Shown here piece after piece: positions 46,777 through 49,625 of a stretch of 64,000 nt of DNA. The first letter of the stretch is position 1. Each line of letters opens with the position of its first letter. The stretch spans positions 248,001 through 312,000 of the forward strand of contig CATOSZ010000003.1 of NCBI GenBank assembly GCA_951812805.1. Direction: 5' to 3'. The notes beneath the pieces were generated by a model, which worked only from the letters and a program-made list of their open reading frames with translations, did no database searches and was not told where the DNA came from. This DNA is from an uncultured Alphaproteobacteria bacterium. Lineage in GTDB: Bacteria; Pseudomonadota; Alphaproteobacteria; GCA-2731375. A program made the translations under genes and the position numbers.

Positions 46777-47742
46777 ATGGCCCAGCACCATCACTCCCGC
46801 GTCTTGATCCTGGGCTCGGGTCCGGCCGGCCTGACCGCCGCGATCTATGCGGCCCGCGCCGGGCTGGAGCCCATGCTGGTGCACGGCCTACAGCCAGGCG
46901 GCCAGATGACGATCACGACGGATGTCGAGAACTATCCGGGCTTCGCCGACGTCGTTCAGGGCCCCTGGCTGATGGAGCAGATGGAGAAACAGGCCGCCAG
47001 CGTCGGCACCGTTTTTCACCAGGACATCATCACCGAGGTCGACCTGCAGGCCCGGCCGTTCCGCTGCCAGGGCGATACCGGCGACGTCTACACCGGCGAT
47101 ACGCTGATCATTTGCACCGGCGCCCAGGCCAAGTGGCTGGGGCTGGAATCGGAACAGAAACTGCAAGGCTTCGGCGTCTCCGCCTGCGCGACCTGCGACG
47201 GCTTCTTCTATCGCGAGCGGCCCGTGGCCGTCGTCGGCGGCGGCAATACCGCGGTCGAGGAGGCGCTGTACCTGACCAATTTCGCCAGCAAGGTGACACT
47301 GATCCATCGTCGCGACGAGCTGCGCGCTGAGAAGATCCTGCAAAAGCGCCTGTTCGCCAACGCGAAGATCGAAATGCTGTGGGATCATGTGCTGGACGAG
47401 ATTGTGGGCGACAGCGAGCCGCCCTCGGTCACCGGCGCGCGGGTGCAGAGCGTAAAAAGCGGCGCGACCCGTGATCTCGCCGTCGACGGCGTCTTCATTG
47501 CGATCGGCCATAAACCGCAGACGGAACTGTTCGCCGGCCAGCTGGAAATGGACGACGAGGGCTATCTCGCGACCCGGCCCGATTCGACCGCGACGGCGAT
47601 CCCCGGCGTCTTCGCCGCCGGCGACGTGCAGGACCATGTCTACCGCCAGGCGGTCACCGCCGCCGGTACCGGCTGCATGGCCGCGCTGGAGGCGGAGAAG
47701 TTCCTGGGCGAGCAGGCGGTCTCGGCCGAGGCCGCCGAATAG
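46777..47742 (+). CDS. trxB: thioredoxin-disulfide reductase
   Basis: A 321-aa FAD/NADPH enzyme that keeps thioredoxin reduced. FAD motif LILGSGPAGLTAAIYAA at residues 10-26, redox-active CATC at 137-140, NADPH motif VVGGGNTAVEEAL, and GVFAAGDVQDHVYRQAVTAA near the end. Normal length. GGAGGC precedes the ATG. Confidence 0.97.
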   Translation: MAQHHHSRVLILGSGPAGLTAAIYAARAGLEPMLVHGLQPGGQMTITTDVENYPGFADVVQGPWLMEQMEKQAASVGTVFHQDIITEVDLQARPFRCQGDTGDVYTGDTLIICTGAQAKWLGLESEQKLQGFGVSACATCDGFFYRERPVAVVGGGNTAVEEALYLTNFASKVTLIHRRDELRAEKILQKRLFANAKIEMLWDHVLDEIVGDSEPPSVTGARVQSVKSGATRDLAVDGVFIAIGHKPQTELFAGQLEMDDEGYLATRPDSTATAIPGVFAAGDVQDHVYRQAVTAAGTGCMAALEAEKFLGEQAVSAEAAE

Positions 47743-47790: not shown

Positions 47791-48681
47791 ATGGATTGGG
47801 ACAAACTCAGAACGTTTCACGCCGTCGCGGAGGCGGGCAGCTTCACGCATGCCGGCGACCAGCTGCATCTCAGCCAATCGGCGGTCAGCCGGCAGATTCA
47901 TGCGCTCGAAGAGGATCTGAAAGCGACCCTCTTCCACCGCCATGCCCGCGGCTTGCTGCTGACCGAACAGGGTGAGCTGCTGTACGGCACCGTGCACGAC
48001 GTGTTCGGCAAGCTCGCCACCGTCGAGACCATCCTGACCGATACCCGGGTGCGGCCGAGCGGCGAGCTGCGCGTGACCACGACCGTCGGGTTCGGCTCGA
48101 CCTGGCTCACGCCGCGGATTACCCGCTTCATCGAGGCCTATCCCGAAATCGATCTCTCCATCATCTGCGAGGACCGGGAACTCGACCTCGGCATGCGCGA
48201 GGCCGACGTCGCCATCCGGATGGGGATGCCGACCCAGCCGGACGTGGTGAAACTGCGGCTCTTCGCGGTGCACACGCACCTTTATGCCGCCCCCTCCTAC
48301 CTGGCCGCGCGCGGCACGCCGGAGAAGTTCACCGACCTCGACGACCACGACCTGATCGTCTACGGCGACCTGGCACCGCCGACGCTGCGCAACGTCAACT
48401 GGCCGCTGTTCATGGAACTGACCGGCCACGACCGGCGCAAGCCGAAGATGCAGGTGAACAACATCTACGGCCTGCTGCTGGCGGCCGAAGCGGGCCTGGG
48501 TGTCGCTGCCCTGCCCGACTACATGGTGCTGGACGACGCCAAGATCGTGCGCGTGCTGCCGGACATCCAAGGGCCGAATTTCGACGCCTTCTTCTGTTAC
48601 CCGGAAGAACTGAGGAATATGAAGAGAATCGCCGCATTCCGGGAATTTCTTGTCGAAGAAGGCCGCAGCTGGAAATATTAG
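47791..48681 (+). CDS. LysR-family transcriptional regulator
   Basis: A 296-aa LysR protein: helix-turn-helix within FHAVAEAGSFTHAGDQLHLS and QSAVSRQIHALEEDLKATLF, then a periplasmic-binding-like effector domain. Its place just after trxB is common in alphaproteobacteria. The target is unknown. A palindromic terminator follows at 48688. Confidence 0.92.
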   Translation: MDWDKLRTFHAVAEAGSFTHAGDQLHLSQSAVSRQIHALEEDLKATLFHRHARGLLLTEQGELLYGTVHDVFGKLATVETILTDTRVRPSGELRVTTTVGFGSTWLTPRITRFIEAYPEIDLSIICEDRELDLGMREADVAIRMGMPTQPDVVKLRLFAVHTHLYAAPSYLAARGTPEKFTDLDDHDLIVYGDLAPPTLRNVNWPLFMELTGHDRRKPKMQVNNIYGLLLAAEAGLGVAALPDYMVLDDAKIVRVLPDIQGPNFDAFFCYPEELRNMKRIAAFREFLVEEGRSWKY

Positions 48682-48784: not shown

Positions 48785-48943
48785 TACCGTTTCGGTGGAG
48801 GAGCGAAAGCGACCTCCACATTGATCGGGTCGACGCACGCCCCCCAAGTTGCCCGACCCGATCGTTAGACGTCTCCGAGACGTTTAGCCTCCCTGTTAGA
48901 CTCGCCCCGGAAGCGCCATGCTTTCGGGGCTTTCTTTTTCCCG
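48765..48943 (+). ncRNA. candidate structured small RNA with intrinsic terminator
   Basis: Four hairpins follow in a row with no coding frame: GTGGAGG/CCTCCAC with an inner GC-GAAA-GC tetraloop (48795-48819); a perfect 10-bp stem GATCGGGTCG/CGACCCGATC with a C-rich 21-nt loop (48823-48863); TAGACGTCT/AGACGTTTA (48866-48886); and a terminator GCCCCGGAAG/CTTTCGGGGC followed by TTTCTTTTT (48904-48940). A single-stranded GCCTCCCTG lies between the last two. C/CU-rich loops able to pair with ribosome-binding sites are typical of regulatory small RNAs. I do not recognise it as 6S, 4.5S, tmRNA or RNase P RNA. Confidence 0.6.
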
Positions 48944-49019: not shown

Positions 49020-49559
49020 ATGGTGAATTTGCCGACGCTTACCGCCGATCAGCTCGCCGATCCCGATCTCAGACGCATGATGGAGAAATCCGGCGACGAG
49101 ATGTTCGGCGTCTTTGGCCACCAGCCCGAGCTGTTCAAGGCCTTTCTCGATTTCTATCTCGACGGCAAGTTCCGCGGCGTGCTGCCGTTCGAACTGAAGG
49201 AACTGGTCCGACTGCGGATCGCCGAGCTGAACCAGTGCCATCGCTGACTGGAAAGCCGCGCGCCCTCGTCGGGGGCGAATGATCTCTACCCCGATCTGCT
49301 GGCCAAGCTGGCGGGCGAAGCGACGCCGACGGCGCGAGAGGCCGCCGCCCTCGATTTCGTCGAGCGGCTGGCGACCCGGCACCACACGATCCACGAAGGC
49401 GTCGTCGACGGGCTGCGGGACCACTTCACGGAAGCCGAAATCGTCGAGCTGGGGCTGATAAGCGGCGCCTTCATCATGTTCGGGCGCCTGCTGCGGGCCT
49501 TCGACGTGGCACCGATGGAATCGCATGCCGACTTCGACGGCGCACACGAGTCCCCGTAG
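49020..49559 (+). CDS. carboxymuconolactone decarboxylase/AhpD-like protein with in-frame TGA (candidate selenoprotein)
   Basis: One continuous frame from the ATG at 49020 to TAG at 49559 (179 residues) contains a single TGA at 49245-49247. Before it the protein reads ELVRLRIAELNQCHR and after it LESRAPSSGANDLYP, then ERLATRHHTIHEG and EIVELGLISGAFIMFGRLLR. The CMD/AhpD family has CxxC at this point ('LNQC..C...R'), so the TGA replaces exactly the second redox Cys, giving CxxU. A hairpin CGCCC/GGGCG with loop beginning in the second base with G lies about 20 nt after the TGA, the position of a bacterial SECIS element. Selenocysteine is therefore likely; a TGC-to-TGA nonsense mutation is the alternative. 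Confidence 0.7.
49248..49280 (+). promoter_or_regulatory. candidate bacterial SECIS hairpin
   Basis: Starting 13 nt after the TGA, CGCCC (about 49261-49265) can pair with GGGCG (about 49273-49277), leaving a 7-nt loop (5 nt if a T-G pair closes it) in which G is among the first bases. Distance and size fall in the range accepted for SelB-binding bSECIS elements; the stem is short, so this is suggestive only. Confidence 0.45.
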
Positions 49560-49563
49560 CGCC

Positions 49564-49599
49564 GAAAGAAAAGGGCGCCGTGGTCGAACCACGGCGCCC
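49564..49599 (-). terminator. intrinsic terminator of pnp
   Basis: Perfect 12-bp stem GGGCGCCGTGGT/ACCACGGCGCCC (49573-49599) followed on the minus strand by TTTTCTTTC. It ends the rpsO-pnp transcript and may also stop the convergent CMD gene. Confidence 0.88.
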
Positions 49600-49625
49600 C
49601 GTTCCGGCTTTCCGTCGAAGACGGC

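Follow-up and report, generated by a model that had tools for sequence, protein, structure and literature searches.

A predicted CMD/AhpD-like selenoprotein gene with a CxxU motif in an alphaproteobacterial genome carrying selenocysteine machinery

The window analyzed in this study is a 64,000-nucleotide stretch of DNA from an uncultured Alphaproteobacteria bacterium. A first-pass annotation, made by a model from the sequence alone, had marked a gene in it as a candidate selenoprotein of the CMD/AhpD-like type. The features at this locus are as follows.

46777-47742: thioredoxin reductase-like gene, two genes upstream of the selenoprotein gene
47791-48681: LysR-type regulator gene, upstream of the selenoprotein gene
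48904-48930, + strand: terminator-like hairpin 3' of the LysR-type gene (consensus match only)
49020-49559, + strand: predicted CMD/AhpD-like selenoprotein gene, 179 amino acids, with the TGA at 49245 read as selenocysteine (Sec)
49236-49247, + strand: predicted redox motif C73-H74-R75-U76, nearly all homologues having Cys or TGA at the position of U76
49261-49277, + strand: predicted bacterial SECIS hairpin CGCCCUC[GUC]GGGGGCG, with its loop 20 nt after the UGA
49572-49600: strong inverted repeat between the selenoprotein gene (+) and the convergent pnp (-), terminator-like on the - strand (consensus match only)

The reading frame starts with ATG at 49020 and ends with TAG at 49557-49559, and the TGA at 49245-49247 (codon 76) is the only in-frame stop within it. 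This TGA occupies the position of the second cysteine of a CxxC motif (LNQC-H-R-TGA-LESR); both the otherwise unbroken frame and the motif were as the first-pass annotation had described them. GC3 was 0.80 upstream of the TGA and 0.85 downstream, and the codon-position GC bias was coding-like on both sides. The read-through protein scored 26.7 bits against the Pfam CMD model (PF02627), above the gathering score of 23, and the match covered residues 36-105, crossing the TGA codon. The family match, described in the first-pass annotation as continuing for more than 100 residues after the TGA, ran on in the homologue alignment for about 80-100 residues past it. Since a terminator-like hairpin follows the LysR-type gene and the downstream neighbour, pnp, lies on the opposite strand, the selenoprotein gene is probably transcribed on its own. 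The thioredoxin reductase-like gene is suggestive of a link to a reductant, as a neighbour only.

An alignment with CMD homologues had been proposed as a check. In it, nearly all Cys-form relatives had Cys at the position of the TGA, and six homologues from five other genomes had a TGA there. These are L053 from a betaproteobacterial MAG, L025 and L069 (both from G041), L083 from the single-contig genome G080, L093 from G001, and L028 from G006, which belongs to the same family as the window genome. Identity of homologues to the window protein was roughly 21-38%, and a search of 14 other genomes from the same family gave no close orthologue, so the TGA is shown to be kept among distant homologues, not near-identical strains. 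No relatives were found on viral contigs, and plasmids carried only homologues of about 25-38% identity. On the best tree, the TGA label required five changes, only two of which were forced by the starred branches. Because the deep forks of the tree are unresolved, we leave the number of Sec origins unclaimed. G041 carries two different CMD genes with a TGA, L025 and L069, together with a Cys-form paralogue, L066.

The 7.42-Mb assembly containing the window (98.5% complete) was then searched for the Sec machinery, and selA, selB, selC and selD were all found. The tRNA-Sec lies at C1:681477 (70.2 bits) and is called SeC by ARAGORN. The selB gene (446.7 bits, over the cut-off) adjoins selA (572.4 bits) on contig C17, and its product carries the C-terminal winged-helix domain (SelB-wing_3) that binds SECIS RNA in known SelB proteins. 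The selD gene (285.5 bits) is an Ndh-SelD fusion on C1, close to the tRNA-Sec. In this fusion (L070:9792-12005), SelD stands behind an FAD/NAD-dependent oxidoreductase domain in a protein of 737 amino acids, and the gene is without an internal TGA. The first-pass annotation had named two findings that would speak against Sec, and the result differed from both: the genome is not devoid of sel genes, and the genomes searched gave no close relatives with TGC or TGT at this codon and degraded downstream sequence here. Across genomes, selB was present in all six with TGA forms, the window genome included; of the 15 genomes that showed only Cys forms, 6 had it and 9 lacked it. A hypergeometric estimate by hand for this contrast gave about 0.017, for genomes that are not independent of one another.

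At least three CxxU selenoproteins were predicted in the window genome, two CMD-like and one SelW-like. The second CMD/AhpD-like gene with a TGA, L096 (G000:C5, about 220249-220776; TGA near position 1750 of L096), has its TGA in a CxxU motif, NDCFY-U-IPTH. L096 sits directly after an ilvD-like reading frame. The SelW-like gene L103 (G000:C1:503812-504003, - strand) scored over the TIGR02174 cut-off and has a TGA at its CxxU (EYCVP-U), followed by a hairpin whose loop begins 21 nt after the TGA. No formate dehydrogenase over the TIGR01553 cut-off was found in the genome, and its Sec apparatus seems to work for small redox proteins of the CxxU type, such as these three. Ten more TGA-interrupted frames with hairpins came out of a scan of the window, and several of these showed GC-by-position patterns that differed from that of the window gene.

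A short hairpin at bSECIS distance from the TGA had also been noted. The hairpin at 49261-49277 has a 7-bp stem and a 3-nt loop, GUC, with G first, and a predicted energy of -10.6 kcal/mol. It agrees with every stated point of the published bSECIS model, namely a loop of 3-9 nt, a stem of 4-16 bp, an MFE of -7.5 kcal/mol or lower, a G within the first two loop positions, and a distance of 16-37 nt from the UGA (PMC13188914). The fold energy of this stretch was no better than that of shuffled sequences (z = 0.05), and 1.5-5% of the TGAs across the window were followed by something comparable, so the hairpin alone is weak evidence in a GC-rich genome. It gains strength only through comparison with homologues. 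Six of the seven TGA genes found first shared a common form, with a 7-bp stem and a 3-4-nt loop 18-22 nt past the UGA, and their loops (GUC, GGUC, GGC, GGC, GUU and CGUG) all fit the published G[G/U] rule. In a loop-anchored comparison, all seven pair positions varied across the TGA genes yet stayed paired, changing in step as would be expected of a selected RNA hairpin. Only 1.3-1.5% of background TGAs qualified for the shared form, and the chance that six of seven TGA genes would do so is below 1e-10 if they are independent; the criterion was set after these hairpins had been seen, and the tree groups L025 with L069 as a sister pair. L096 was found after the criterion had been fixed and shows the shared form (ggcgcuc[GGUC]gggcgcu, loop 21 nt past its UGA), and as a held-out case it answers the caveat of a criterion set post hoc. 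Of ten Cys-form homologues, only L059 had anything comparable, a 9-bp stem of lower stability. L028 has a TGA at its CxxU, and by the same criterion a hairpin of the shared form was absent; it may have an atypical SECIS or be a decayed copy.

A lone stop in a frame that is without close orthologues could look like a pseudogene, in which a chance nonsense mutation turned TGC or TGT into TGA and the remainder of the frame is not yet decayed. However, the stop is a TGA at exactly the codon expected for Sec, and it recurs there in the six homologues from five other genomes and in L096 of the window genome. The frame past the TGA is also intact with coding GC3, and both a SECIS-like hairpin and the full sel machinery are present. 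A pseudogene is therefore very unlikely, and the earlier judgement that Sec is likelier than a chance nonsense mutation is supported by the machinery, the TGA and Cys homologues, and the conserved hairpin. A sequencing or assembly error at this codon, which was read from the assembly, is likewise very unlikely, since independent assemblies have TGA at the same position, the genome holds a second such gene, and an error at the codon would not produce the hairpin.

We next considered the fold of the predicted protein. An AlphaFold2 model, with residue 76 as Cys, was all-helical with a mean pLDDT of 81, and it matched solved AhpD-like structures with a Foldseek probability of 1.00 and TM-scores of about 0.6-0.74. 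Glu61, C73, U76/Cys and His121 were invariant in alignment A1, and the first three align with positions conserved in the family. An AhpD-type peroxidase would have a Glu, a CxxC or CxxU, and a His four residues past the second Cys. In the window protein, Arg80 stands at the place of this His, which is present in solved relatives such as PA0269. The His is used in classical AhpD, so the window protein need not follow classical AhpD chemistry. It scored below the cut-offs of both TIGR01926 (peroxidase-related enzyme; 34.5 bits against 81.8) and NF053654 (YciW-related (seleno)protein; 25.6 bits against 310), and by the latter model it is not an NF053654 member; all seven TGA forms matched NF053654 at E <= 0.001. 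Low-level UGA readthrough is known in bacteria, and a further alternative to Sec at residue 76 would be a true stop giving a 75-residue N-terminal product, or a UGA read by a near-cognate tRNA. Either is very improbable: the 75-residue piece would end before the second redox residue and would miss the conserved C-terminal half, the genome encodes both SelB and tRNA-Sec, and the hairpin accompanies the TGA forms.

Taken together, the position of the TGA, the Cys and TGA homologues, the sel machinery, the conserved hairpin, L096 and L103, the distribution of selB, and the AhpD-like fold model argue that gene 49020-49559 very probably encodes a selenoprotein with Sec at residue 76. In the proposed mechanism, SelA would make Sec-tRNA-Sec using the selenophosphate of SelD, and SelB carrying it would bind the hairpin 20 nt past UGA-49245. 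Sec would then be inserted at residue 76 to complete an active site, C73-x-x-U76, within the all-helical fold of the CMD/AhpD-like type. There it would most likely serve as the redox-active selenol, pairing with C73 in a selenenylsulfide. This pair may act in a peroxidase-like or reductive reaction, and we slightly favor peroxidase-like chemistry. It is possible, and in our view rather doubtful, that the window protein forms with its nearest TGA homologues, L053, L025 and L069, a CMD selenoenzyme subgroup outside the curated models, without the usual His (Arg80 here), with His121 invariant and with a reaction that is not the reduction of alkyl hydroperoxides.

AhpD-like/CMD-like CxxU selenoproteins are known from a 2005 report on the Sargasso Sea onward (PMC1088965), and the window gene joins that kind. 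The GOS data contained the families 'AhpD-like 1' (COG2128) and 'AhpD-like 2' (pfam02627), with 299 and 70 sequences, respectively (PMC2398784), so such proteins are indeed known from marine metagenomes, as the first-pass annotation had stated. Recent reviews report them too, and PMC13188914 lists them under TIGR01926 and PF02627. The sole new element of the window gene is its divergence from curated models, as seen in scores below the NCBIfam cut-offs. In annotation, selenoprotein genes such as this one are usually overlooked or entered as truncated. The finding helps to correct such entries and enlarges the known set of the CMD type, leaving the picture of selenium use unchanged.

With the published CxxU examples, the window protein has in common the CMD domain, the CxxU motif, a TGA opposite Cys, a bSECIS right after the TGA, and abundant Cys homologues; judged by its TIGR01926 score, it is divergent from them. 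With NF053654, as with NF041047 and NF041238, it shares the superfamily. The solved Cys-form relatives PA0269 (2ijc, 2o4d, 7xw1), Ralstonia 2prr and Mlr4105 (3c1l), and the debrominase Bmp8 (6ohi, 6ohj), are like the window protein in fold and in the position of the CxxC. The solved CMD/AhpD-like proteins have Cys where the window protein has its predicted Sec, and PA0269 has His where the window protein has Arg80.
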